Assembly: GCA_030697555.1 (NCBI GenBank)
Contig: JAUYPV010000167.1
Span: forward strand, 1-64,000
DNA: 64,000 nt
Reading direction: 5' to 3'
From: Hyphomonadaceae bacterium
Lineage (GTDB): Bacteria; Pseudomonadota; Alphaproteobacteria; Caulobacterales; Hyphomonadaceae
In this document: one piece after another, positions 7,730 through 62,958 of the stretch
Position numbering within the stretch: position 1 is the first letter of the stretch
Layout of the letters: every line of letters begins with the position of its first letter
The notes under the pieces: model-generated
Seen by the model: the letters and a program-made list of their open reading frames with translations, nothing else
Told to the model about the DNA's origin: nothing
Databases searched by the model: none
Program-made: the position numbers and the translations under genes

Positions 7730-8558
7730 AGACCGAAAAAGCGGTTGAGACGCTTTTGGGTCTATAGCCGATGAGTCTCGCACGGAGAGAACGGCCGATT
7801 GAAAGTTCTGATCGCGCACGGCGGACACCAGCCAGCGCAACCGGCGCGCCCGACGAGACTCCGCTGACGTGGTGGACGCCCCCTCCAGTGGCATCGGTGT
7901 GCCAAAGTGGAGGAAATTAGCTGCACCAAGAAGGAGACGTCCGTGAAAAGACCTAGCATGCTGGGATTTGATACCTCCAAGGCTGTTCTTGAGATTCAGG
8001 GAGCTGACGCCTCAGGCGCCGCGTTTTGCGGCAAGATCGTTCGGATCAGGTTGCTGGAGTTCTTCGCTCAACCCAACGCCCATTTCAGGGTGTGAAACTT
8101 GAGCCCAAGAGCGTGACGACGTGAAAGCGCCGGCCACATTCGAGGTGACTTCGCCCGTCGGTTGCAAGGCCAACGAATTTCATCGGCGAGTGTCGATCTA
8201 ATGCCGCCGAGCTGATCTCTTGCAGCGTCACGGTTTGGTGTCGTTGGAAGCTTTCTGGAAGTCGCCGCTCGAGAGATTCACTTTCAACTAGCCTTTTGGT
8301 TTTGCACGACACTTGTGCGCCAGCGAGCGCGGTTTGATCATCGGGGCGGTCGCGCGATTTATTGCTTCGTCCAGTCGGGGCCGTTTTTCCTTAGTTTGTC
8401 GCTGTTCCAAGCAAGGCTTATCGTTTTTCGTGCGATTGACGCGCGAGAAATGAACGAATGGGTTGATGTCCGAGGGCTGGCGGATTCCTGGTGCGGCCAC
8501 CGTGAACGGCATTCGCGGTGTTCGACCCCGCCGGCAGGGTCAGGACAAGGGTCGTAGT
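7730..8558. other. intergenic region with transposon debris
   Basis: About 830 bases separate the broken XRE gene from the TonB receptor. The only recognisable coding remnant is the IS110-like N-terminus at 7943-8095. Other open frames have no family resemblance. The receptor reading frame is open back to a TTG at 8463, but signal-peptide logic places its start at 8559, so the promoter and leader of the receptor should lie between about 8100 and 8558. Confidence 0.5.
7943..8095 (+). mobile_element. IS110/IS1111-family transposase, N-terminal remnant
   Basis: From the GTG at 7943, preceded by AAGGAG at 7930-7935, the frame encodes LGFDTSKAVLEIQGADASG, matching the start of IS110-type transposases (GLDTSKxxFxVHGxDxxG), including the first RuvC-like aspartate. 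The frame stops after 50 codons at a segment equivalent to LLEFFAQQP. No further transposase domain is recognisable downstream, so only the 5' end survives. No terminal repeats were identified. Confidence 0.6.
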
Positions 8559-11500
8559 ATGAAAAATGGAAAGTGGGCTGACCGGCTTCGCCGGTCAGCG
8601 GCGCTGGGGGCTTTGCTCTCGGCAACGAGTGCTTTTGCCTTTGCGCAAGAGCAACCACCGACGGATGAAGTCGTGCGGACCGTCAAACCTGCGGAGGAAC
8701 CGCCGGAGGAGCAAAAAGACGTCGTCACCATCACGGGTTCGCGTATCCAGACGAGCACGTTCAACAGCGCGTCGGCGATGACTGTCGTTACGACCGAAGA
8801 AGCCGACGTTCAGGGCGTCACCGATATCGCCTCGCTGCTGCAAAACAGCGTCGCTGCAGCCGGATCGAGCCAGACGACCGCCGCGATCTCCTCAGCCATT
8901 GCCGCACCTCCCGGCGGTCTCGGAACGCAGACGCTGTCGCTGCGGGGCCTCGGGGCCCAGCGGACGCTGATCCTGCTCAACGGTCGGCGCGCTGGCCCGG
9001 CCGGCACCGGCGGCAGCGTCGGGCCATTCGACCTCAACGTTCTGCCGCTCTCCGCTGTCGAGCGCGTCGAGATCCTGAAGGACGGCGCGTCCTCGCTCTA
9101 TGGTTCGGACGCAATCGCCGGCGTGGTGAACATCATCACCAAGATGGATTCGAGCTCAAGCATCGATCTCTCCTACACCAGCCCGGAAAAAGGCGCAGGC
9201 GAGGAGCTACAGGTCAGCGCCACGTGGGGCAAAGAGTTCGACCAAGGCTATTTCCGCATCTCGGCGGACTACTATCATCAGAAAGAATTCGATCGCGGCG
9301 ATCGCGACTATTTCTTCTGCGGACAGAACTACTTCTTCAACCCGGACGGCACGCGCGCCGACCTGTTCGATCCGCGCACCAACGATTACACCTGCCGCGA
9401 CGACGTGATCTGGGGCCACAACTGGACTTACGACTATGGCGGCGATAGCAGCCCCGTGGACGCTAACGGCTTCCGCCACCGTCCCTGGCAGGGCACGATC
9501 GGCCGCTATCAGTACGACTACAGCGGCACGCTGGGACAGTATCTCCTGCCCTTCAACGGCTCTAATCCTGCGCCGAGCGGCCTCGTCAATCCGGCGGGAT
9601 GGTATCCGGTCGGCTACAGCAACCTCGTCGCGGGCGGCTTGCCCGATCCGATCTTCGATCCCTATGCGCGCAACTCCGCCGCGGTCGAAGATTTCTATCA
9701 CCCGTTCATGAACGACATCACCCTGTCGCCGGAGATCGAACGGTTGTCGGTCGTCGCCGCCGGCGAATACGCCATCAGCGACAGCATCACCCTCTATGGC
9801 GAGGCGCTGCTCAACCGACGCTCGACCCGCGAGGACGGCTACAGCCAGATCTACACATTCCAGTATCTCTATACATACGGCGGCGATGTTTTCGGCGACC
9901 CGGTTGCGATCGACAACGGTTGGACGCTGCGCGACGATCCCCTGAGTTACTACTACGTATTTCTCAGCCCCACAGCGATCACGGATCACGCCGACCAGAA
10001 GGTGTCGATCGACTACGTACGTGTTGTCGGCGGAGCGCGCGGCGACTTTGGCCCAACTATGCCGAACTGGACGTGGGACTTCGCGGCGCAGTTTTCGCGC
10101 TCGGACGGCGTCTACAAGGAAGACATTTTCTGGGTCGACGCGATCACCGACTACGAACTACGCAGCGACCTTTGCGCCGGCACGCTAACCCGCTATCGCG
10201 GCGCCCCGTGCGTCGACATCAATTGGTACTCGCCCGCCTTCAACAATGGCGAGCTCACCCAGCAAGAACAGGATTTCCTCTACGGCCAGACACGAAGCCG
10301 GACGGTCTACGAGCAGACCACGCTCGAGGGCTATATGACCGGCCCGCTGTTCAAGCTGCCGGCAGGCGACGTCGGCGCGGTGTTCGGCTTCATGTACCAG
10401 GACGACAGCATTCTAGACCGGCCCGCCGATGCGTGGCTCGACCAGGAGGTGTGGGACGGACGGCCAAGCCGGCGAGGCATCACCACGGGAAACGACGATA
10501 CGCGCGCTGCCTATGTCGAGTTCTCGGTGCCGCTGCTCAAAGACTTGCCGTTTTTCGAAAGCCTCGAGCTGTCACTGTCCGGCCGTTACACGGACGTCGC
10601 CTCCTACGGCGCCGATTCGACCTGGAAAGCCGGTCTCAGCTGGGCTGTCACCGACGAGCTCCGGTTTCGCGGAAGCCAGGGCACGTCGTTCCGCGCTCCC
10701 GGCCTCTACGAACTCTATCTCGCGGAGCAGATCAGTAGCTTCGCGCAGAACGGCGATCCGTGTGCGCAATGGGGGAACAAGCTGGCCCTCGGCCAGATTA
10801 CCCAGCGTATGGCCGATAACTGCCGCATCGACCCGAAATTCCCAGGCGGCATCGGGCCGACACAGCTGTCCACCGGCGGCATCACAGCGACGGTCTATAC
10901 CAGCGGCGGCTATGGCACCCTCGTCGCTGAGACATCCGAATCTCGCTCGCTCGGCGTTGTCTGGGCGCCGGAGTTTCTTGGCGACCTCCAGATTTCGGTC
11001 GACTATTTCGACATCATCGTCGAGGGCGAGGTCGGTCGTGTCACGAACGCTTACATCTTGCGCAACTGCTACGACTCCGCGTCCTTTCCGAACGATCCGC
11101 TATGTAGTCTCTTCAGCCGCAAACAGCCTGGCGAGCTGCCTCCAGGGCCGATCAAGGAGATCTTCAACAACTATCTCAACATTGCAGCTCAGACGAGCCG
11201 CGGCGTCGACGTCGAGGCGCACTATGGCCTCGAGATTCCGTGGGGCGACCTTGACTTCACCCTGCGAGCGACGCGCCAGCTAGAAGCGGGCGAACAGCTT
11301 CTGCCAGGCAGCCCTTTCAACGACGACAACGGAGAGGCGGGCCAACCCGAATGGGTCGCCAACCTCAACTCCACGTTCACGGTCGGATCGTGGTCGGCGT
11401 TCTGGGGCGTCCGCTATGTCGACGCCACCTCGGAACTCGATGACTTCACCACGGCGAACCCGAACCAGCCCTACACCTTCCTGGGCAATCCGGTGAACTA

Positions 11501-52990: not shown

Positions 52991-53696
52991 CCGATGGTCC
53001 TCGCATAGCCGGCCGGATCGACCCGGTGAAACTCGTTAGCAATTTGCCGCCGCGTTCCAATCCTTCGGGAAATTCAAGGACGCGACCGCGTGTACGAACG
53101 CGTCCTTACAATTCCCAAAGTTATTCTCTATCTCGATAATGAGTGTTCACACCCGAAATACCCGACGTCAGCTTCCCGTCAAGCGCCAAGAGCCAAGAGC
53201 ATCTCGCCTGGTGTCAGAGTTCGGGACCTCCCTGGCGGACACCAGCGTACGGTGACATCGCCAATATTACGGCGATCACCGCCGCGCGAGCTGGAGAAGG
53301 GATCTGTCGCGGCAACACCTGCTTCTTGTCCGGATGGTTCTGGCGAGGAACAACTTCCACCCCAGCACCGCCATGCCGATTGGCGCTGCGCCGGCGACGT
53401 TGCGTCGCAACCGAGTGCGTCAGTCAAAGTGTTGGACCAGCATCCGCCGGCGTCAAGCCGACGAACGGAAATGCGGTCAAATACGACTGCGGGGAATAGC
53501 AGGAGTGGGCCAACGCCTGCTGCTCGCCTGACTTGCATCGCCGTCTGCAGCGAATAGCGGACGTTCGCCCCGTTCAACCAACCGGGCTTCGTTTTGAAGC
53601 ATGATCGTCGCAAAGAGCCGTACTTGTCCCGGCGCCAGTGGCATGAAACTAACGATTGACCACTTTATGCCGCGCTTGGTCTTTGGAGTGCACGCA
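52991..53696. other. intergenic region, nothing recognised
   Basis: About 700 bases between the TetR gene and the dipeptidase. Open frames on both strands are arginine- and serine-rich without family resemblance. A sequence GTACGAACGCGTCCTTAC at 53091-53108, just upstream of the TetR gene, is loosely symmetric and could be an operator, but the match is weak. Confidence 0.4.
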
Positions 53697-55022
53697 ATGA
53701 CGCTTACGAACGTCGTCCCTGGCTGGACCTTGGGAAAGTTCACCGCCGCGTTCGTTCTGGCTTTCGCCCTGTCCGCCTGCGCGCCTTCCGACAGGGTAAC
53801 CTCGGAGAGCGAGCCGCCCAGTGAAGCCGCGCTGATCGAAAGCGCGCGCACCATCCATCAGCAGAGTCCGGTTCTGGATGCGCATGCTGACATCGTTGTG
53901 CCATCAACAGCGGCGAATTTTCTCAGCGCTGACGGATTGTCAAAGGTAGCTCCCTCGAAACTCAAGGCCGGGGGAGTCGGGGCCGTCGTCATGTCAATCG
54001 CGGTCGGGCCCGGGCCGCGCACGCCCGCAGGAGACGCGGAGGCGCGTGCGGAAGCGGACGAGAAGCTTGCGGCCGTTCAGGCGCTGGCCGCCGAGAATGC
54101 TGACACCGTGGCGATAGCGAAATCATCCGATGAAATCCTGGCTATCCGCGAAAGCGGCAAGACGGCATTGATCCTGGGATTCCAGAATGCCAGAGCGCTT
54201 GAAGGGAATGTGTCTGCGCTCGACACGTTCTATCAGGCTGGCGTCCGTGTATTTGCTCTGAATCATCTGGCCCACAACGACTTCTCCGATTCCTCGCGCC
54301 CGTTCCATGATGCGGCGACGGGCCTGTATGAGCCCGACGCGCACGGCGGGTTGTCGGCCCTCGGTCTCGCCGCGATTGACCGCATCAACGCACTCGGGGG
54401 CGTCATCGATATATCCCAGGCGTCGAAAGCGGCCACCTTGGAGACCATTGCACGGTCGAAGACGCCCGTAATCGCCAGTCACTCAAACGTCCGCGCGATC
54501 TCGAACGCCACGCGCAATCTTTCCGACGAGGAAATCGATCGCATCGGGGAGACCGGGGGCGTCATTCACGTCGCGCCGTTCTCGGCTTATCTGATCAATT
54601 TCTCGACCCCGGAAAAGCTCCAAGCCATCGATAAGGCGCGGAGCGCTGCAGGCCTTCCCGCCGCCTATTCGTATCCATACGAACTCTACTGGGAGCTTCC
54701 GGATCCGGCTGCGCGGGCAACCTTCACAGCCTCGATCCGCGAGGCGCTCGGGCCAGCGACGATCGATATCATGATAGACCATATCGACTACATCGTGAAA
54801 CGCATCGGCATCGACCATGTAGGCATCGGCACGGATTTCAATCATGGCAGCGGTATCGAGGGGTACGAGGACGCGAGCGAGTCGTTTGCCGTTACTCTTG
54901 GGCTCGTCCGTCGCGGCTATTCAGCGGATGACATTAAGAAGATCTGGGGAGGCAATTTTCTGCGGGTGCTGCGCGAGGCCGAACGCGCCGCCGACAGCTC
55001 GAAGGGCAAGGCGAAACACTAA
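53697..55022 (+). CDS. membrane dipeptidase, M19 family, lipoprotein
   Basis: 441 aa from the ATG at 53697, which has GGAG 8 bases ahead; the frame is open further upstream. Lipobox LSAC follows a hydrophobic stretch, so the enzyme is exported and lipid-anchored. M19 zinc ligands are visible: DAHAD (first pair), a glutamine in ILGFQNARAL where renal dipeptidases have Glu, NDFSDSSRPF, SHSNVRAI and HVGIGTDFNHGSGI. The glutamate-to-glutamine change in GFxN (usually GxEG) deserves checking. Likely role: hydrolysis of dipeptides or amides in the periplasm. Confidence 0.85.
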   Translation: MTLTNVVPGWTLGKFTAAFVLAFALSACAPSDRVTSESEPPSEAALIESARTIHQQSPVLDAHADIVVPSTAANFLSADGLSKVAPSKLKAGGVGAVVMSIAVGPGPRTPAGDAEARAEADEKLAAVQALAAENADTVAIAKSSDEILAIRESGKTALILGFQNARALEGNVSALDTFYQAGVRVFALNHLAHNDFSDSSRPFHDAATGLYEPDAHGGLSALGLAAIDRINALGGVIDISQASKAATLETIARSKTPVIASHSNVRAISNATRNLSDEEIDRIGETGGVIHVAPFSAYLINFSTPEKLQAIDKARSAAGLPAAYSYPYELYWELPDPAARATFTASIREALGPATIDIMIDHIDYIVKRIGIDHVGIGTDFNHGSGIEGYEDASESFAVTLGLVRRGYSADDIKKIWGGNFLRVLREAERAADSSKGKAKH

Positions 55023-55918
55023 ATCCTCCAGCATAGCCAGCGCAGTTTCCACCAGGCTATTTCTCTTTGGATGCAGACCGCTCGTTCTCCGAGTTTGGGT
55101 CGCGCCAATGCGCAACCGGACTGTCGATTTGTTCACCGCCTCTTGGCGACCGTCACCTTTCGAGTTTTTCAACAGTATCGGCCAACTTGCAGACCATGAC
55201 TGCAGTGTCTCCATAAGGAGACAGGGCGCGGGCTGTTCTCTTCCTTCCCAAGTGGCGCACTGAGGATGTTGCTCTGCAACGCGCACGTTGCTGCGACGCA
55301 TGTCCGACTGCCTGCTCGTCCGTGGACCCAGATATTGTTTTCGCCAAAGTCGATCTGCGACTCCTTCGAGAGACACAGCCGCATCCATCATGCGGCATGC
55401 CGACAGCGACCACGACGCGAATGCGGTCTCTCGAATTCGGCCATGTCCGAGAAATTCGATTTCTGGCGCGATGCCAGTGACGTGCTCGCGAAAACGGCAC
55501 GACGGCGCGCCTGCCGCGAACTCTGATCGGGCCCCTGTAGAGATTCTTGAAGGCCAAGTCCCCGGAGAGTAGGCCTCTATTCGGAGGCTCCGTGACGACC
55601 GCCCCCGGTGACCGGGCTCCCTCGCTGGGACACTAGGATTCGACCAGTCTCTCGATTCTTAGTGTAGAGCAAAAAACTCGATGCGAGTCCGATGCTTAGT
55701 TGATCCTGAACACGAAGCTTTATCACTCGAGCGGCCGCAGAAGTCGCTGCCAGCACCAGCGTACAGCCATCTCCAACCCACCTCCGCCGGTCAAACCGCG
55801 GACAGCAATGACTAAAGGGAGCGGACGTCGCGTGGCGAGGCGCGGCGCGGCGCCAGCCTCACTTTTTTTCTGCAAGTTTGAACCGCCCCGGCGCCGAGCT
55901 CGACAAACCCAGCACTTG
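55023..55918. other. intergenic region, nothing recognised
   Basis: About 900 bases between the dipeptidase and the small barrel gene. Open frames are low-complexity or without resemblance to known proteins. A promoter for the barrel gene is expected toward the right end. Confidence 0.4.
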
Positions 55919-55969: not shown

Positions 55970-56689
55970 ATGCGCCTGCCAGTTATTGCCGCCGCCGCCA
56001 CGTTCCTGCTGGCGGCCTCCTATCCTGCTCATGCCCAGGCGCCCCAGCATCGCTTCTATGCCTCGCTTCACGCCGGCCAGGACGTGCAGGATGACGAAGC
56101 CATTCGCGGCTTCAACGTCGCCAACCTGCCTCGCAACAACGACCTGACCTTCGCCGATGGCCGCGTCTTCGCAGCAGCGTTGGGCATCAACGCGCTTGAA
56201 GGCGACTGGGGCCGTGTCCGGTTTGATGCGGAACTGTCGCACCGTGAATCAGACGTCGACACGATATTCCTGAACAACGTCCAGCAGACCATCCGGCAGG
56301 GCTCCCACGTCCTGATGACCGCCGCCATGCTCAACGCGTATTACGACACGCCCGTCTATTTCGATCGCGTTCGCTTCTATGCGGGCGTCGGCGCTGGCAT
56401 CGCCAACGTCGACCATCAGGTGCGCTATCGGATCACGGGCGGGACGGCCCCCTCTCTCGCCAATATCGCGATCCCGACATCGGAGCCGACCTGGTCCTAC
56501 CAGCTTGTCGGCGGCGGCGAGTACATCCTTACGCCGAACTGGTCACTCCTTGCCGATGTGCGCTTCGTCGAGTTCGGCAACCACCAGATCCAGCGCTTCA
56601 ACCTCACCGCCGGCGCGCTCGACAGCGTGAACGACGTCTCCGACAAGTCGAGCGTCTCCGTCACGGCCGGACTTCGCTACGCGTTCTGA
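55970..56689 (+). CDS. outer-membrane beta-barrel protein (OMP_b-brl, opacity-like)
   Basis: 239 aa. Signal peptide MRLPVIAAAATFLLAASYPA with AHA-QAP cleavage. Amphipathic strands alternate with loops: YFDRVRFYAGVGAGIANVDH is the typical hydrophobic-girdle strand pair, and the protein ends VSVTAGLRYAF with terminal phenylalanine. About eight strands are likely, as in the OmpA-transmembrane/Opa-like porin-like group. GAGGAG precedes the ATG. No enzymatic motif. Terminators lie both before and after, so it is transcribed alone. Confidence 0.85.
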   Translation: MRLPVIAAAATFLLAASYPAHAQAPQHRFYASLHAGQDVQDDEAIRGFNVANLPRNNDLTFADGRVFAAALGINALEGDWGRVRFDAELSHRESDVDTIFLNNVQQTIRQGSHVLMTAAMLNAYYDTPVYFDRVRFYAGVGAGIANVDHQVRYRITGGTAPSLANIAIPTSEPTWSYQLVGGGEYILTPNWSLLADVRFVEFGNHQIQRFNLTAGALDSVNDVSDKSSVSVTAGLRYAF

Positions 56690-56825: not shown

Positions 56826-58016
56826 TCAGCGCGTCCCGCAACCGTCCTTGAGTATGGGCAGGCCGTATCCGTAGACGACGTCCCGGCCCGGCGCGCCAAG
56901 GTCGGCCGACGATTCAACGAGGGCCTTCATGGTTTCGCCAGCCGTCTTCGCCGAAAGGGCGCGCGGGTCCGCGGCAATCCGCGCCGTGACATAGGGCGCC
57001 GCAACCGAAGTGCCGGTGACATATTCTCCCTCTCCGCCCACCAGCACGAAGACATCGACGCCAGGCGCCGCAAAATCGATATGCGCGCCGCGAACCGCGT
57101 TGTCATAGATCTTGCTCTCAACGTCGATTGCCGTCACGGCGATTACGCCGTCGAACGCCGCAGGATAGCGCGGCGGACTCTCGGGGCCGTTGTTCCCGGC
57201 GGCGGCAACGATGATCATCCCCTTGGCGATAGCCTGCTGCAGGCTGCGGTCGAGGATCTTGTTGTAGGGGCCGGCGAGGCTGATGTTGACGAGCCGGACG
57301 TCGGACACCTGCATCCAGTCGATCGCGCGGACGAGGCTGTCGACGCCGGCGGCTTCCTTTGCCATGCGGTGGTCGGAGAGCACGCCAGCATTCTGCAACC
57401 GGACGCCGGCGAGCCGGCCCTCGCCGGCCAGGATCTGGGCGGTCACGGTTCCATGGTCGGTATCCGCGGCAGGACCGCTTTTCGTTCCGGTAAAATCACG
57501 AAACGTGAGCGAAACGCCGGTGAGGCCCGGATCGCTGGCATCCGCCGCCGCATCGATCAATCCGATGACGGCGTTCGCGCGACAGCCGCCATCCGGCCAT
57601 CCAAGGAGGCGGCCGGCATATTCGCGGCGACCATCGCCCGATCCGTCCTTCGCGGAGACGCGATAGGCGTGGTTCACTCCCGCAGTGACGCCGGGCTCCA
57701 TGCTCTCAAGTTCGCGGATGGCAGCGTCTCCCGGCATGTTCGCCGGAATGGTCATCACCAGAAGCACCAGATCGAGCCCGGTCAGCTCCTCTTGGGATTC
57801 GACGACATAGCCTCGCACCGCCGATTTTTGCGTCAGGGAGAATGCGGCGGCCGAAGTGCGCGCGAGCACTACGATCTGCTGGTCGTCCACCACGTCGCCG
57901 GCGTCGGCCTCGATCTGGAGGGGCAGAGGCGGCGCCGGCTGGAACATCTCGCAGGCGCACAGGGCAAGCATGGAAGCGCCGAGCGCCGCCCAACGAATGG
58001 ATGTCTTCGGTGTCAA
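56826..58016 (-). CDS. lipoprotein subtilisin-like serine protease (S8)
   Basis: 396 aa from the TTG at 58016, chosen because AGAGG lies 6 bases ahead and the product then has a short signal with lipobox LCAC (about residue 22). Residues about 25-130 resemble a protease prodomain. The catalytic triad is AVIGLIDAAAD (D155), DTDHGTVTAQI (H188) and VTGTSVAAPYV (S337), with the oxyanion asparagine in AAAGNNGPE. It is exported and lipid-anchored, so it acts in the periplasm or at a membrane. It follows the barrel gene 58088-59332 in one leftward unit beside an ECF sigma/anti-sigma pair. Confidence 0.88.
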   Translation of the reverse strand: MTPKTSIRWAALGASMLALCACEMFQPAPPLPLQIEADAGDVVDDQQIVVLARTSAAAFSLTQKSAVRGYVVESQEELTGLDLVLLVMTIPANMPGDAAIRELESMEPGVTAGVNHAYRVSAKDGSGDGRREYAGRLLGWPDGGCRANAVIGLIDAAADASDPGLTGVSLTFRDFTGTKSGPAADTDHGTVTAQILAGEGRLAGVRLQNAGVLSDHRMAKEAAGVDSLVRAIDWMQVSDVRLVNISLAGPYNKILDRSLQQAIAKGMIIVAAAGNNGPESPPRYPAAFDGVIAVTAIDVESKIYDNAVRGAHIDFAAPGVDVFVLVGGEGEYVTGTSVAAPYVTARIAADPRALSAKTAGETMKALVESSADLGAPGRDVVYGYGLPILKDGCGTR

Positions 58017-58087
58017 TTCAGACCTCTGCAAGGAGCCAAATGCTTTGTCGCCGCCCGCGGCGGGCGGGTTCAATCGCTGTCCCGGCC

Positions 58088-59332
58088 TCAGAAACTCCTG
58101 CGGACCGAGAGCCAGAGCTTTTGAGTATCCGCGCCAAACCCGTCGGCGGAATAACTGGCGAATTCCAGCGATGCCTGAACATCGTTCACCGAAGCTCGCA
58201 ATGATGCATCCCATTCCGTGCCAAGATCGTCGCCGGCGATGTCGTCGGCAAACCAGTGATGCCGCAGGCCTGCAGTCAGGCTGCGCAAGGGTCCCACCAC
58301 GCCAATCAGCCAGCTGCCGTCGAGAAACGTGTCCCGCACGCCGACGTCCGGCGTCACCACAAATAGGTCGGCGGCGCCCTGGAAGGCGTGGTTGGTTCCC
58401 AGCGGCGTCTGGAATGCGCGCGCGCCGCCCTCGCCGAGAACCTCATGTCCGGCCGTCGCCGATACGCCGACGACCTCCAGCGTGGCCACCGCACGCCAGT
58501 AGTCGGCGGAATAGTCCAACGGATTGCCTGCGTGATCGCGCTGCCGTGCATACTCCGCGCGCCCGCCAAGTCCGAAATTCTTCCAATAGCGCTGGCCGGC
58601 GAGGCTGACACCCGAAGTGACGCTGGAATTGACCTCGCTGAGCGGCCCACCCGCCCCATCGTCGAGATCGAGCACATAGTGATAGCCGGTCAGCCGGCCG
58701 GCCGGCGTCTCCGCGCTGACGTTCACCAGATAGGTGTCGCCACGATAGCGAGAGGCCGCGTCCCGCGCCGACAGGAAACGGTTCACCTGCCACAGGTAGG
58801 CAACATGGATCGCTACGCCGCTGAACGGCGAGGCCGATAGCTGCGCGGCGTCATAGGTCTGCTCGTTCTGGCGAAACCCCACCGACCCGACAAAGCGCTC
58901 GTCGTCGAACGACAAGCGCTGGCGCCCGCCGATAGCCCGCCCGGGGCCGAAATCGTGCGATAGCTGGGCGCGGTTGATTTCGAGCACTTCGCGGTCCGGA
59001 ATGAGCGGTCCCGGCGGCCCGTCCTGCAGCTCGTCGCGGTAAAGATCGGCGACGCCTTCCACCTCGACCAAAACGCTCGTGCGGGGCGAAAGCTGCAATT
59101 CGGCGCCGGACCGGACGCGCAGCGTCAACGCCTGTTCTTCGGCGCCGGCCAGGTCGGAATCGACCGACTCGAACCGCAGTCTTGCATCGCCAAATCCCCG
59201 CAGGACCAGGTTCGGCGATGCGGCGGTGGTATCCGGCGCTTCCTGAGCCGCGACAGGAGCACAGCAAAGCAGGAACGCAATCATGGTCGGCGGAAACCGC
59301 TGCCCAGCCATAACGTGCACTGCCGCTACCAT
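58088..59332 (-). CDS. outer-membrane beta-barrel protein (alginate-export-like)
   Basis: 414 aa. A signal peptide ends MIAFLLCCAPVAAQ; AGGAGG lies 12 bases before ATG 59332, with ATGs at 59311 and 59284 as alternatives. The barrel has regularly spaced amphipathic strands (ALTLRVRSGAELQLSPRTSV, GGRQRLSFDDERFVGSVGFR, TAGLRHHWF) and ends KLWLSVRRSF with terminal phenylalanine. The RQRLSFDDERFVGSVGFRQ segment is close to the alginate-export (AlgE-like) family. It heads a leftward unit with the lipoprotein subtilase and is divergent from the anti-sigma gene. Confidence 0.82.
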   Translation of the reverse strand: MVAAVHVMAGQRFPPTMIAFLLCCAPVAAQEAPDTTAASPNLVLRGFGDARLRFESVDSDLAGAEEQALTLRVRSGAELQLSPRTSVLVEVEGVADLYRDELQDGPPGPLIPDREVLEINRAQLSHDFGPGRAIGGRQRLSFDDERFVGSVGFRQNEQTYDAAQLSASPFSGVAIHVAYLWQVNRFLSARDAASRYRGDTYLVNVSAETPAGRLTGYHYVLDLDDGAGGPLSEVNSSVTSGVSLAGQRYWKNFGLGGRAEYARQRDHAGNPLDYSADYWRAVATLEVVGVSATAGHEVLGEGGARAFQTPLGTNHAFQGAADLFVVTPDVGVRDTFLDGSWLIGVVGPLRSLTAGLRHHWFADDIAGDDLGTEWDASLRASVNDVQASLEFASYSADGFGADTQKLWLSVRRSF

Positions 59333-59370
59333 CCCGATATCCCGCCTCCTGACGGCCGGCGCGAAGGATT

Positions 59371-59395
59371 GAACCAGATCGCCACTTTCATCGAC
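59371..59395 (+). promoter_or_regulatory. ECF-type promoter-like sequence upstream of the anti-sigma gene
   Basis: GAACC at 59371-59375, 16 bases, then CGAC at 59392-59395. ECF sigma factors typically use an AAC-containing -35 element and a CGT-like -10 element about 16 bases apart. It lies about 78 bases before the anti-sigma ATG. Prediction by eye only. Confidence 0.35.
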
Positions 59396-59472
59396 TAAAT
59401 ATCCGGAAAGATGCAGTGGGCTTTTCCCCGCCCCGCCTCAGCACTAAGCATGCCTTCCGGGAGGCGCATAAG

Positions 59473-60084
59473 ATGGCAGACCAGACAAGGTACTCCGACG
59501 AGACCCTGCGGGACTACGCCAAGGGCCGTCTGTCTCCCGCGGAGGCCCTCGCCCTCGAGGCGGCCGCAGACGCCGACCCTAGGCTGGCAGCGGAGATCGC
59601 CCTTGTTCGCGGTGTGGTTAAAGTTGGCGAGGCGGATGCCGGCCGCGCCGCCTCCTCCGAACTGGGTTGGGCGCGGCTTTCCCGCGCCATCGATGCGGAG
59701 AGCCAGAAGCCGCCTGCGTTCGTGCCGAAACAGTTCTCGCGCTGGCAGGTCGCCGCCGTTGCCGCGATTGCCGTCGCAGGCTGGGGCGCCGCGACCGCGC
59801 CGCTGCTCGTGGCGCGCAACGACCGGCCCGGCGGCGGCTACGCCGTGGCCAGCGAACGCCCGGCCTATGCCTATTCAGCGCAGGCGACCTTCATACCCAC
59901 CGCCCAGGAGAGCGCCATTCGCGAGGCGCTGCGCTCCGTGAACGCCGAAATCGTGGCGGGCCCGAGCGCTCTGGGCGTCTATGTGCTGGCCTTCAAGGAC
60001 GAGGACGCGCTGAGCAGCGGCGTGGAAGCCCTGCGCACCCGCACCAGCGTTCTCGAATCCGCGCAGGCGATCTTAAAGCCCTAA
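59473..60084 (+). CDS. anti-sigma factor, single-span membrane protein
   Basis: 203 aa from ATG 59473, with GGAGG ahead. The cytoplasmic N-terminal region (RYSDETLRDYAKGRLSPAEA, then ALEAAADADPRLAAEI) is the anti-sigma domain pattern of RskA/FecR-like proteins; no HxxxCxxC zinc motif. One membrane span WQVAAVAAIAVAGWGAATAP lies at about 91-110, then a periplasmic domain of about 90 residues (TFIPTAQESAIREALRSVNA). It should sequester the ECF sigma factor encoded convergently at 60089-60640. Release by proteolysis is the usual mechanism; the neighbouring exported subtilase is a candidate. Confidence 0.85.
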   Translation: MADQTRYSDETLRDYAKGRLSPAEALALEAAADADPRLAAEIALVRGVVKVGEADAGRAASSELGWARLSRAIDAESQKPPAFVPKQFSRWQVAAVAAIAVAGWGAATAPLLVARNDRPGGGYAVASERPAYAYSAQATFIPTAQESAIREALRSVNAEIVAGPSALGVYVLAFKDEDALSSGVEALRTRTSVLESAQAILKP

Positions 60085-60088
60085 ACGA

Positions 60089-60640
60089 TCAGATCCCCCG
60101 GATCACCTTTGTCAGGCACTGCATCAGCAGCTTCTTCGCGTGGAAGATGCGGGTCTTGATCGTCCCTTCCGGAACCCGCTCAACCTCGGCGATTTCCGCG
60201 TAGCCCATGTCCTCGTAGAAGGCGAGCCGGACGGCGCGGGCGTGAGAAGCGCTCAGCTTGTCGATGCAGCCGCGCACCTGTTCGGCGTCGCTTGCGGCTT
60301 CCATCACGGCCTGCGCATTGGGCGTCAGGTCAGGCGGATCGAAATCTTCATCCAGCGGAACTTCCCGGCCTTTCTTGCGGAAGCGGTCGATGGTCTTGTT
60401 GCGCGCGATCGAGAATATCCATGTTTTTACCGACGAACGATCTTCGTGCCGCGACGCCGAGCGCCAGACATCCAGGAATGTGTCCTGCACGACATCGAAC
60501 GCCTCCATGGAATCTCGAAGACGGGATTCGACGAACACGAGCAGGCCGGCCTGATGGCGCTCATAGAGCCGCTTCATGGCGCCCTTGTCGCCGCCAGCGA
60601 CACGCTTGAGCAAGGCGCGGTCATTTTCATGATCCTCCAC
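60089..60640 (-). CDS. RNA polymerase ECF sigma factor
   Basis: 183 aa if it starts at the GTG at 60640 (GGAGGG 10 bases ahead); the frame is open to a GTG at 60673. Region 2 is seen as LYERHQAGLLVFVESRLRDS, AFDVVQDTFLDVWRSA and WIFSIARNKTIDRFRKKGRE; region 4 as ARAVRLAFYEDMGYAEIAEV and VPEGTIKTRIFHAKKLLMQC. No extra regulatory domain. Its stop lies 4 bases from the stop of the anti-sigma gene on the other strand, an unusual convergent layout. Confidence 0.92.
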   Translation of the reverse strand: MEDHENDRALLKRVAGGDKGAMKRLYERHQAGLLVFVESRLRDSMEAFDVVQDTFLDVWRSASRHEDRSSVKTWIFSIARNKTIDRFRKKGREVPLDEDFDPPDLTPNAQAVMEAASDAEQVRGCIDKLSASHARAVRLAFYEDMGYAEIAEVERVPEGTIKTRIFHAKKLLMQCLTKVIRGI

Positions 60641-61206
60641 CTCGTTCGCTCCCTCCACGCGCCCGCGGCGCACCCCGAAACCCTCGGACCGTGGTGTTGG
60701 TCGCGATGATATGTTTGGTCAAGTCAGTCCTGCGCTCGCACTGGAAAAACTCTACGCCCTTACCGGGCCTCGGACACAGAAGGCGGACATCGGGCGCGTG
60801 ACCGCCGGCGGACGGTCCAATCTGAGCGCCACGATACGACCTTGCCTCGGTGCGCTGGCTGCTTCGTCGGAGATCTTCTGCGCGTTGCGACGCAGCGCTC
60901 CGCTGTTGCGCCGCAACGTCACTCCCTACCCGTCCACCGACCGCGATACTGTTTCCGGCGGGTCCGATGTCCGCTCTCATCAGGCGCATCGCGGTTGGCC
61001 GGCATGCTGGTCAAAACGCCGCCGAAGGGGCCGCAGTGCTTCAGCGCATGGGACAGCTCGCAGTTCGCCGTGACCGACTACCGTTCGGGAAGCCTCCGAC
61101 GCCCAGCGATTGCGCACCTCGCGACAAACGTGTTCGAGTTAGCGCGACCCGCTTGATCCTTTCCGCCATCGAGTGAAGCTATGACCCACAGCGCAAGGAA
61201 AAAGCC
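60641..61206. other. intergenic region with a coding relic
   Basis: About 570 bases upstream of the sigma factor (leftward) and of gamma-glutamyltransferase (rightward). The only recognisable item is the 30-base repeat at 61051-61080, whose frame reads CFSAWDSSQFAVTDY. Promoters for both genes should lie here. Confidence 0.4.
61051..61080. repeat. 30-base repeat, copy 2 (copy 1 at 43979-44008)
   Basis: 29 of 30 bases match the stretch inside the gene fragment at 43944-44198, 17 kb away, in the same coding frame (DSSQFAV then T or I, then DY). Sequence beyond the 30 bases diverges. Confidence 0.7.
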
Positions 61207-62958
61207 ATGAGGCGCCGCTCATTTCTCGCCGTCCTTCCTTTCATGGCGGCGCCCGCGTTCGCCCAGAACGTCAACCGGCCCGACATGCGGCCGGGGGATC
61301 GCCAGAGCGGGGCGTCGTTTGCTTCGCGCTCCACGGTGTGGGGCGCGAACAGCGCGGTTGCGACGGGCCATCCGATGGCGAGCATGATCGGCATCGATAT
61401 TCTGAAACGCGGCGGTTCGGCGGTGGATGCGGCAATCGCGGCGAATGCGGCGCTGGGATTCCTCGAGCCGACGGCCAACGGGATCGGCGGGGATGCGTTC
61501 TGCCTGCTGTGGGACCCCAAGCAGAAGAAAGTGATGGGGCTGAATGGCTCCGGGCGATCGCCGGCCAACCTCACTCTGGAGATCGCGCGGTCCCGAGCGA
61601 AGAATGGCGAGGTGCCGGGCCTGGGCGCGATTTCCATCAGCGTGCCGGGCGCGGTCGATGCCTGGTCGACGATGCACAAGCGCTACGGGAAGCTGCCGTG
61701 GAAAGACCTGCTGGAGCCGGCCGCCGCGCTGGCCGACAAGGGCACGCCCGTGCCGCAGGCGATCTCCATGCTGATGGAGCGCGGCATGAATCGCTTCCTC
61801 GCGCCGGGGTCGGGCGTCGAGGAAACGGAGAACATCAAGAAGATGTACCTGACGCGCGGACATACGCCGCGCGAGGGGGAGATATTCCGCAATCCGGACC
61901 TCGCGCGCACGCTGCGTAACGTGGCGAAGGGCGGGCGCGACGCTTTCTATGACGGGCCGATCGCCGACACGATCGAGACCTATTTCAAGCGCGTCGGCGG
62001 GTGGATGACGCGGAAGGACCTGGCCGCACACCATTCGGACTGGGTCGAGCCGGTATGGGTCGATTATCGCGACGGCGTCCGGGTCTATGGCATGCCGCCG
62101 AACAGCCAGGGACCGACGACGCTGCAGATGCTGTCGATCCTGAAGAATTTCGATCTCAAGGGCATGGGGCTGATGTCGCCCGCGTCGGTGCACCACCAGG
62201 CGGAGGCCAAGCGGCTCGCCTTCGAGGACCGGGCGCGGTATTTCGCTGACCCCGCGTTCGCGGAAATCCCTATTCAGTATCTGCTGTCGGACGGCTATGG
62301 GCAGGAGCGCGCCAAGCTGATCCGGCCGGACAAGGTGATGGACCGCGTCTTCCCGGGCGATGCGCCGCATCGGGGGGACACGACGTATCTCACCGCATCA
62401 GACTCCAGCGGCATGATGGTGAGCCTGATCCAATCGAATTATTCGGGTATGGGCGCCGGGTTGATGCCCGACGGGCTGGGCTTCATCTTCCAGAACCGCG
62501 GCAGCGGCTTCTCGCTGGTCGACGGCTCGCCGAACATCTATGCGCCGCGCAAGCGGCCCTTCCACACCATCATTCCCGGCTTTGCGCTGAAGCAAGGCGC
62601 GCCGTGGCTGAGCTTTGGGGTAATGGGCGGGAGCATGCAGCCGCAGGGACAGACGCAGATCGTGGTCAACCTGGTGGACCACGGGCTCGATCCGCAGGCG
62701 GCGGGCGATTGCCCGCGCTGGCGGCACGATGGCGGCTCGGAACCTACCGGCCTGCCCGATCCGAGCGGCGGCGAGCTGTCGCTGGAGTCGGGCACGCCGG
62801 CGTTCACCCGCGCGCGGCTGGCCGATATGGGATGGAAGGTTGCGCCGATACGCACCTATGACAGCGGCTATGGCGGCTACCAGTGCATCATGAAGGGCGC
62901 GGAGGCTTATGGCGCCGCTACCGAGATGAGGAAAGACGGGCTGGCGCTGGCGTACTGA
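61207..62958 (+). CDS. gamma-glutamyltransferase, exported
   Basis: 583 aa Ntn-hydrolase precursor. The N-terminus MRRRSFLAVLPFMAAPAFAQ combines an RRRSFL Tat-like motif with an AFA cleavage site. The large-subunit landmarks are GGSAVDAAIAANAALGFLEP and NGIGGDAFCL. Autocleavage would occur before T392 in HRGDTTYLTASD, the conserved TT pair. The glycine-rich VMGGSMQPQGQTQIVVNLVD and DPQAAGDCPRWRHDGG segments complete the family. It probably acts in the periplasm on gamma-glutamyl peptides or glutathione. It differs from the partial homolog at 1-201 by lacking the GASDPR C-terminus. Confidence 0.92.
   Translation: MRRRSFLAVLPFMAAPAFAQNVNRPDMRPGDRQSGASFASRSTVWGANSAVATGHPMASMIGIDILKRGGSAVDAAIAANAALGFLEPTANGIGGDAFCLLWDPKQKKVMGLNGSGRSPANLTLEIARSRAKNGEVPGLGAISISVPGAVDAWSTMHKRYGKLPWKDLLEPAAALADKGTPVPQAISMLMERGMNRFLAPGSGVEETENIKKMYLTRGHTPREGEIFRNPDLARTLRNVAKGGRDAFYDGPIADTIETYFKRVGGWMTRKDLAAHHSDWVEPVWVDYRDGVRVYGMPPNSQGPTTLQMLSILKNFDLKGMGLMSPASVHHQAEAKRLAFEDRARYFADPAFAEIPIQYLLSDGYGQERAKLIRPDKVMDRVFPGDAPHRGDTTYLTASDSSGMMVSLIQSNYSGMGAGLMPDGLGFIFQNRGSGFSLVDGSPNIYAPRKRPFHTIIPGFALKQGAPWLSFGVMGGSMQPQGQTQIVVNLVDHGLDPQAAGDCPRWRHDGGSEPTGLPDPSGGELSLESGTPAFTRARLADMGWKVAPIRTYDSGYGGYQCIMKGAEAYGAATEMRKDGLALAY

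Follow-up and report, generated by a model that had tools for sequence, protein, structure and literature searches.

A predicted subtilase-prodomain-like domain on a membrane anti-sigma factor encoded beside an ECF sigma factor and a subtilase

How might an ECF sigma factor be controlled when its presumed anti-sigma gene faces it on the other strand and a subtilase is encoded close by? This arrangement is found in the window, by which we mean the whole stretch of 64,000 nucleotides analysed here, and it involves the following features.

60089–60673 (−): ECF sigma factor (Sigma70_r2, E 4e-16; Sigma70_r4_2, E 1e-11)
59473–60084 (+): membrane anti-sigma factor, 203 aa (AF2 model, weak profile matches)
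59869–60081 (+): predicted prodomain-like C-terminal domain of the anti-sigma factor, residues 133–203 (AF2 fold, profile family)
59369–59395 (+): promoter-like motif TTGAACC-N16-CGAC before the anti-sigma gene (ECF-type, conserved position)
58088–59332 (−): Alginate_exp-like outer-membrane β-barrel (PF13372, E 2e-5, 24.0 bits, below the cut-off of 25.2)
58047–58073 (−): second promoter-like motif, in the gap between the barrel and subtilase genes (pattern match)
56826–58016 (−): S8 subtilase, 396 aa, TTG start (PF00082, E 9e-24)
55878–55904 (+): third promoter-like motif, before the gene of the small outer-membrane protein (pattern match)
55970–56689 (+): small outer-membrane barrel protein, OMP_b-brl (PF13505, E 1.8e-12)

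Our analysis confirmed the set of ECF sigma factor, membrane anti-sigma factor, Alginate_exp-like barrel and S8 subtilase. The sigma and anti-sigma genes are convergent with stop codons 4 bases apart, as claimed in an earlier note on this DNA, and the anti-sigma gene is divergent from the barrel and subtilase genes. The unit of four genes drawn in that note stands, except that it leaves out the small outer-membrane protein gene (55970–56689, + strand), which probably belongs to it too. In the sigma factor, Pfam matched sigma regions 2 and 4 and no others, and the protein aligns with the sigma genes of four loci (L017, L018, L019 and L022) that also hold relatives of the barrel. Its GTG start may lie at 60673 or at 60640; the latter, chosen in the earlier note, gives a length closer to that of relatives and is at least as plausible and perhaps the better choice. 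The subtilase has the PF00082 match and the Asp/His/Ser triad of the S8 family, and D155, H188, N275 and S337 do not vary across the 17 sequences aligned, the window's among them. Its AF2 model (pTM 0.86) best matches unprocessed pro-subtilisin E in the PDB (3whi_B, E 1.4e-20) and contains its own prodomain at residues 47–114. The enzyme is exported and probably lipid-anchored, as proposed earlier: the window protein has the imperfect lipobox 'LALCAC', and six relatives (L017, L019, L074, L076, L077 and L079) have clearer ones.

The predicted topology of the anti-sigma factor comprises a class I-like N-terminal domain, a hydrophobic helix at about residues 90–115 and a periplasmic C-terminal domain (residues 133–203). 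No Pfam family matched the window protein, and the PRK13920 and 'antisigma' models hit it weakly; the family profile aligned with the solved anti-sigma factors 3hug_B, ChrR and DdvA at E 0.03–0.08, and zf-HC2 was found at E ≤ 1 in 8 of 16, 9 of 20 and 20 of 31 anti-sigma factors in three sets holding its relatives. AF2 folds residues 134–199 with high confidence (block means 89–98) in the order β-α-β-β-α-β, which is also that of the subtilase's own prodomain. The best VIA match of this domain is the prosegment of subtilisin BPN' (1spb_P; Z 7.7, rmsd 2.7, 65 residues aligned), a Z score which, being under 8, may reflect merely a common arrangement, and in 13 of the 50 matches listed the matching part is a subtilase prodomain or POIA1, an inhibitor resembling a propeptide. 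Since 1spb_P shares its rank with Boca and RRM domains and the fold is widespread, the superposition on a known prosegment is not specific. No Foldseek match reached E 0.001 (the best was ribosomal protein S6), and a viral fold search returned nothing below that value. In the 1spb_P alignment, model residue 203 falls on residue 74 of the 77-residue prosegment, so that the window protein may end too early to extend into the active site. In 43 relatives, the profile match to the domain ends 0 to 31 residues (median 8) before the C-terminus, which places the domain at or close to the end of the protein, and the tail that follows varies among them.

A probable link to subtilase prodomains is seen also at the level of sequence families. 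PF22148 ('Fervidolysin N-terminal prodomain') matched at E ≤ 1 in 4 of 16, 5 of 20 and 6 of 31 anti-sigma factors (three scan sets, the first two overlapping; best E 1.8e-4, 0.066 and 7e-7, respectively), and no family apart from it and zf-HC2 exceeded two matched members in any Pfam scan. Its curated cut-off of 21 bits is passed by L021 (29.8), L061 (22.3) and L188 (24.7), while the window protein and most of the anti-sigma factors scanned are unmatched. When the window protein was left out of the domain profile, the profile still recovered it at 4e-16, together with L188 (1e-12) and L021 (5e-10), neither of which is in the profile (Z set to 200,000). The window domain shares a profile family with these two proteins, which lie above the Pfam cut-off. 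Direct comparison of the domain with subtilase prodomains by hhalign was weak though in register (P 0.002–0.006, probability 7–14%), the catalytic-domain control giving P 0.28, and searching PDB sequences with the domain profile produced 23 matches (E ≤ 10), of which most were ribosomal eL43 and none a subtilase prodomain. On these profiles and models, we conclude that a conserved, predicted subtilase-prodomain-like domain forms the periplasmic end of the anti-sigma factor, a feature that the earlier note had not seen.

Does this domain travel with the protease? Among 70 loci found by anti-sigma searches, 42 of the 47 that bear the domain have an S8 gene within 3 kb, versus 6 of the 23 that lack it (Fisher p 2e-7, a value that overstates independence because the loci are related). 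The window and L207, from the window's own genome, are outside this count, and L023 was dropped from it for having no anti-sigma factor above threshold. The domain is not required for S8 linkage, since six domain-less anti-sigma factors have a divergent S8 neighbour. The five domain-bearing loci with no S8 gene within 3 kb are L062, L196, L201, L203 and L204, and in two of them (L196 and L203) a caspase-family gene adjoins. Seen from the protease, an ECF sigma ORF is present within 3 kb in 65 of 80 S8 loci; the other 15 include L084, L123 and L142, whose contigs begin at or just before the S8 ORF. Convergent sigma and anti-sigma genes were found in ten distinct loci (window, L017, L018, L019, L054, L074, L075, L076, L079 and L185), a recurrence beyond chance; the two genes overlap by 4 bases at one extreme and are 101 bases apart at the other. 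The full set with the barrel occurs in five, convergent in the window, L017, L018 and L019 and co-directional in L022, so the four genes are not without the co-conservation that the earlier module supposed. The barrel is dispensable, however, as sigma/anti-sigma/S8 sets without it recur far more widely, in Alpha- and Gammaproteobacteria and in Nitrospirales.

The promoter-like motif separates these forms. TGAACC-N16-CGAC stands before the anti-sigma gene in 10 of 11 convergent or barrel-containing loci versus 2 of 53 other loci (which include at least one same-contig pair, L057 and L097, both lacking the motif). In 48 of these other loci, domain-bearing ones, it stands before the sigma gene in 11, the reverse strand giving 1, and is missing from the remaining 37 sigma upstream regions. 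This distribution suggests that the convergent form has moved sigma-dependent control from the sigma gene to the anti-sigma gene; in the window, control seems to have shifted also to the S8 and outer-membrane protein genes, as read from the motif positions. At the S8 gene, hits in L017 and L018 are so close to the start used (33 bases and 16 bases upstream, respectively) that they may be chance, and the count in other domain-bearing loci (1 of 48, with 1 on the reverse strand) is of little value because most S8 starts were taken as the starts of stop-to-stop frames. The strict pattern has 7 matches in the window genome versus 2 in the reversed control, and 3 of the 7 fall inside the module. 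The looser TGAACC-N15-16-CGWC gave 81 versus 33 in the reversed control, a noise level at which the definition of a sigma regulon failed. The view that the sigma factor drives the module promoters fits the motif at the anti-sigma and subtilase genes and finds no support at the barrel, before which none of the five barrel loci has it. In a consensus scan of 59300–60800, no sigma-70 promoter came up, and the single terminator-like site does not exceed the number in shuffled sequences. In L017, a homologue of the small outer-membrane protein (E 8e-64) is encoded next to the sigma gene, with no further homologue in the loci searched; this protein is a possible further sigma target.

From the gene content, the co-conservation, the predicted fold and family of the domain and the motif, we propose an envelope-signalling module in which the anti-sigma factor shows a prodomain-like docking site to its partner subtilase in the periplasm, a proposal that we favour while giving it somewhat less than an even chance. 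Binding, cleavage, release, the reading of the motif by the sigma factor, an antisense effect and an inducing signal are what we infer from these observations. At rest, the anti-sigma factor would keep the ECF sigma factor at the membrane, and the subtilase would dock on the prodomain-like domain in the way that such enzymes bind their own propeptides. Free active subtilase may then digest or clip the domain, and the remaining stub would be cut by an M50 site-2 protease, one of which is encoded in the window genome. The sigma factor so released would transcribe the anti-sigma, subtilase and small outer-membrane protein genes from TGAACC-N16-CGAC promoters. Because the sigma gene is not under a motif promoter in the convergent form, the response is expected to be a negative feedback that does not amplify itself, and head-on transcription of the anti-sigma gene into the sigma gene might strengthen it. 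As the outer end of the inhibitor resembles the pro-region of a subtilase, protease and switch may touch directly; the domain raises the likelihood of the dedicated subtilase link suggested earlier and of a direct contact, which is still putative.

The same domain could instead act as a cap, in that bound subtilase shields the anti-sigma factor until misfolded envelope proteins draw it off and another site-1 protease cuts, the module thereby measuring protease load. Propeptides and POIA1-type domains inhibit subtilases, and the location of the domain at or near the C-terminus is as in a released propeptide. Inhibition is itself presumed here, and the tail after the domain is variable and, in the window protein, perhaps not long enough to occupy the active site; we regard this cap as unlikely. 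Protection of an anti-sigma factor by a partner has a precedent in TonB-dependent transducers (PMC11637429). To a similar degree, we doubt that the subtilase is output only, that is, a sigma-driven envelope quality-control protease clustered with the other genes because of co-regulation, the anti-sigma domain being a ferredoxin-like sensor of another ligand. The tie of the domain with unrelated ferredoxin-like folds, the motif before the S8 gene in the window and the activation of a divergent serine-protease gene by RpoE6 overexpression in ECF26 (PMC6180224) would all suit it. It sits poorly with a domain that tracks the S8 gene across loci, whose PF22148 is the sole family besides zf-HC2 with more than two members matched in any scan, and which in two S8-less loci adjoins the gene of another, caspase-family protease. 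Lastly, the earlier suggestion that the barrel senses or admits a signal, here a ligand passing the Alginate_exp-like porin to trigger the subtilase as in cell-surface signalling, is very improbable and was set aside: the barrel adjoins the subtilase in five distinct loci, but most related modules do without it (among 80 S8 loci, a barrel ORF was seen in 4, of which two lack sigma, and it is absent from all of L184–L208), no TonB or plug domain was found by Pfam at E ≤ 1, and these counts with the lack of a barrel motif (0 of 5) make it an unlikely core sensor.

Returning to the docking proposal, we know of no sensed signal for most ECF anti-sigma factors. More tentatively still, a widespread class of them may mimic a subtilase propeptide on the outside, the cell gauging how much of one dedicated subtilase is free and active (in some lineages, a caspase-family protease instead) by way of the handle on which subtilase folding and inhibition also depend; in the convergent clade, the sigma-dependent promoter would have passed to the anti-sigma gene from the operon of the sigma factor and damped a switch that was self-amplifying. 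If true, one anti-sigma class gains a testable partner in the neighbouring subtilase, the joint travel of ECF and subtilase genes is partly explained, and signalling offers a case of natural propeptide mimicry. The promoter rewiring, if real, would allow gene order to predict the sign of feedback.

Such modules have known relatives. Like RseA/DegS/RseP, the window module has a membrane anti-sigma factor bearing a predicted periplasmic domain, and an M50 site-2 protease is encoded in the genome; the linked candidate protease differs, as it is a module-encoded subtilase without a PDZ domain, matching only Peptidase_S8, and no DegS-type trypsin-like PDZ protease is linked to the anti-sigma factor. 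Subtilase prodomains and free-standing inhibitors resembling propeptides (Inhibitor I9 type, POIA1) share the predicted fold, and in some relatives PF22148, with a domain that is here carried on a transmembrane anti-sigma factor, apart from a protease having its own prodomain. ECF54, as described in PMC8999054, also has subtilase and caspase-like (CHAT) neighbours of its sigma genes, but is presented without an anti-sigma factor, proteolysis being proposed to control the sigma factor instead. Term look-ups in PMC8103513 and PMC7406223 returned no mention of subtilases, and in the literature searched, of incomplete coverage, we found no description of an anti-sigma factor with a subtilase-propeptide-like domain. 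The pairing of an ECF system with such a protease, which the earlier note held to be new, is already known: according to PMC6180224, overexpression of RpoE6/EcfR6 (ECF26) in Sinorhizobium meliloti activates the divergent serine-protease gene SMa0142. There too, ECF sigma, membrane anti-sigma and serine-protease genes lie side by side, although the sigma/anti-sigma operon is divergent from the protease gene, whereas sigma and anti-sigma genes converge in the window, and the ECF26 promoters look like GGAATA...CGTT, the window unit carrying TGAACC-N16-CGAC instead. By gene layout alone, ECF26 resembles 41 divergent loci of the 80 S8 loci, whose anti-sigma factors have no match to the prodomain-like domain profile. 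The window genome itself holds a second, divergent sigma/anti-sigma/S8 unit elsewhere (L207).

The module consists of genes for an ECF sigma factor, a membrane anti-sigma factor, an Alginate_exp-like barrel and an S8 subtilase (PF00082), located with their neighbours as follows:

53601-55022 (+), M19 membrane dipeptidase, flanking gene
55970-56689 (+), small outer-membrane barrel, OMP_b-brl
56826-58016 (-), subtilase, TTG start
58088-59332 (-), outer-membrane barrel, scoring slightly below the Pfam cut-off for Alginate_exp
59473-60084 (+), anti-sigma factor
60089-60673 (-), ECF sigma factor
61207-62958 (+), gamma-glutamyltranspeptidase, flanking gene

The four genes were all confirmed in the arrangement claimed by the earlier note, with 4 bases between the sigma and anti-sigma stop codons. 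The subtilase catalytic residues (D155, H188, N275 and S337) are invariant in 17/17 aligned sequences, and its signal peptide bears an imperfect lipobox that is clearer in several close relatives. The window's genome also encodes one M50 site-2 protease.

An anti-sigma search of the order (200 genomes) gave a match in eight, including the window's own. Among the seven others, the loci L017, L018 and L019 hold the same four-gene convergent unit, while L022 has all four genes co-directionally, L021 retains sigma, anti-sigma and S8 without the barrel, L020 has its S8 gene divergent from sigma/anti-sigma, and no S8 gene was found at L023. Class- and phylum-level searches (matches in 30/385 and 99/398 genomes, many of the latter in the N-terminal part only) chiefly revealed sigma, anti-sigma and S8 operons. 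When named genomes were scanned with an S8 alignment, 65 of the best 80 loci retained had an ECF sigma ORF no more than 3 kb from S8. These 65 divide into 18 with a window-type anti-sigma (6 convergent, 12 co-directional), 41 in which S8 is divergent from sigma and a different anti-sigma, one co-directional with another anti-sigma type, and five without a detected anti-sigma. The 18 window-type loci include Alphaproteobacteria, Gammaproteobacteria (L099, L105, L118) and Nitrospirales (L082, L090). Counting contigs of equal length once (L019 and L078; L054 and L077), ten distinct loci are convergent: the window, L017, L018, L019, L054, L074, L075, L076, L079 and L185. The expected co-conservation of all four genes thus holds in the five distinct loci where the barrel adjoins the module (the window, L017, L018, L019 and L022, with L080 taken by its length as the L022 contig); sigma, anti-sigma and S8 are broadly kept together, but the barrel is often absent. 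Alginate_exp-like barrel ORFs also occur in L100 (3306-4730) and L103 (3263-4615), ~2 kb upstream of S8 ORFs that have no sigma gene up to 3 kb away. In L017, a second ECF-like sigma gene (7999-8574 (+)) overlaps the end of the S8 gene.

A C-terminal periplasmic domain (window residues 133-203) is common to the anti-sigmas of these modules and has a motif resembling V.F.P.A....I..LL...A.I..GPSA.G.Y.L. In the AlphaFold2 model (20 rows), helices between residues 9 and 115 precede a strand (134-140), a helix (146-155), two strands (159-162, 169-174), a helix (177-189) and a final strand (194-199). This predicted order is that of subtilase prodomains, and it recurs in the modelled subtilase at residues 47-114, ahead of the catalytic domain; the closest PDB match of the subtilase model is unprocessed pro-subtilisin E. 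The top VIA-align match of the anti-sigma domain is the subtilisin BPN' prosegment (Z 7.7, rmsd 2.7, 65 residues), tied with Boca and RRM domains, and Foldseek by itself returned no match below E 0.001. Fervidolysin N-terminal prodomain (PF22148) matches at E <= 1 were obtained for 4/16, 5/20 and 6/31 anti-sigmas in three scans, and the curated cut-off was passed by those of L021, L061 and L188 among 20 proteins shown singly; the window anti-sigma gave no PF22148 match. Since a profile made with 30 other domain sequences, the window protein being excluded, recognises the window (4e-16), L188 (1e-12) and L021 (5e-10), the window domain is, at the level of sequence profiles, a member of a family whose outer members Pfam names prodomain. 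Counting against prodomain kinship, direct hhalign comparison with subtilase prodomains was weak and a PDB sequence search with the domain found no subtilase prodomain.

The domain's association with the protease was assessed in 70 loci reached via anti-sigma searches rather than via the protease, and classed with a single profile set. Sampling covered 7/7 non-own order-level matches, 20/31 non-own class-level rows and 44 of >100 phylum-level rows, 20 of these 44 being picked as expected domain-free controls. An S8 gene lies within 3 kb in 42/47 loci with the domain versus 6/23 without it (Fisher p 2e-7, a value inflated by kinship among loci); all six of the latter are divergent. Three expected controls (L211, L214, L225) proved to carry both domain and S8 gene. 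In L196 (4150-4956 (-)) and L203 (5327-7345 (+)), which lack S8 within 3 kb, a caspase-family gene directly follows the domain-bearing gene (Peptidase_C14, E 1.8e-39 and 1.6e-8); no sigma gene was found near the L203 pair.

In the likeliest reading, docking of the subtilase on the prodomain-like domain would allow free subtilase activity to control the anti-sigma, most simply by clipping, with the site-2 protease finishing the clipped protein. We infer further that the convergent layout, combined with sigma-dependent anti-sigma expression, would damp the response, to which head-on transcription could contribute antisense repression. Alternatively, the subtilase bound to the domain may act as a protective cap that shields the anti-sigma, or it may merely be a product of sigma control. 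The interpretation offered in the earlier note is in part supported and sharpened by these data; a bolder reading would be propeptide mimicry as a signalling handle.

Sigma-dependent expression was approached by enumerating bipartite motifs, with neighbouring spacings pooled, in 30 upstream regions of ten convergent loci. TGAAC-N17-CGAC occurred in 9 regions from 8 loci, against a maximum of 3-4 over 20 block shuffles. A position scan of the 11 convergent/barrel loci (TGAAC, spacer 15-18, CGAC or CGTC) placed it 63-132 bases ahead of the anti-sigma start in 10/11 (L079 being without), ahead of the S8 start in 5/11 (two implausibly close), ahead of the barrel in 0/5 barrel loci and upstream of sigma in 0/11, one L017 match starting 4 bases inside the gene. 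Among another 53 loci with the domain, outside the discovery set, TGAACC-N14-17-CG[AT]C preceded sigma in 11/48, always by 38-59 bases and in loci labelled as six genera (reverse strand, 1/48), and anti-sigma in 2/53. The contrast for anti-sigma (10/11 versus 2/53) gives p 5e-9; that for sigma (0/10 convergent versus 11/48) gives p 0.18, which alone is not significant. On these counts, one promoter kind seems to control the sigma operon in ordinary loci but to have moved to the anti-sigma in convergent/barrel loci. The stricter TTGAACC-N14-16-CGAC has 7 matches in the window's genome (reversed control, 2), four elsewhere and three in the module, ahead of the anti-sigma, the subtilase and the 55970-56689 gene (TTGAACC-N16-CGAC, ~91 bases upstream). 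The proposal that sigma drives anti-sigma and barrel/subtilase promoters is therefore consistent with the motif for anti-sigma and subtilase, but not for the barrel. A homologue of the 55970-56689 gene adjoins the sigma gene in L017 (3056-3796), where the scan found no motif.

The literature searched contained no report of a prodomain-like domain on an anti-sigma or of a promoter move in the convergent clade. A protease-linked ECF system, which had been considered new, is not: an ECF sigma gene beside a serine-protease gene is known from PMC6180224, according to which the divergent layout of rpoE6 and SMa0142 is conserved widely across group ECF26, and RpoE6 has SMa0142 as one of its prominent targets. 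ECF54, as described in PMC8999054, has subtilase and CHAT neighbours and no anti-sigma, whereas the window module has one. A second sigma/anti-sigma/S8 unit, which gave no match to the prodomain-like domain, is present in divergent layout in the window's own genome (L207, contig C37, 7000-17000).
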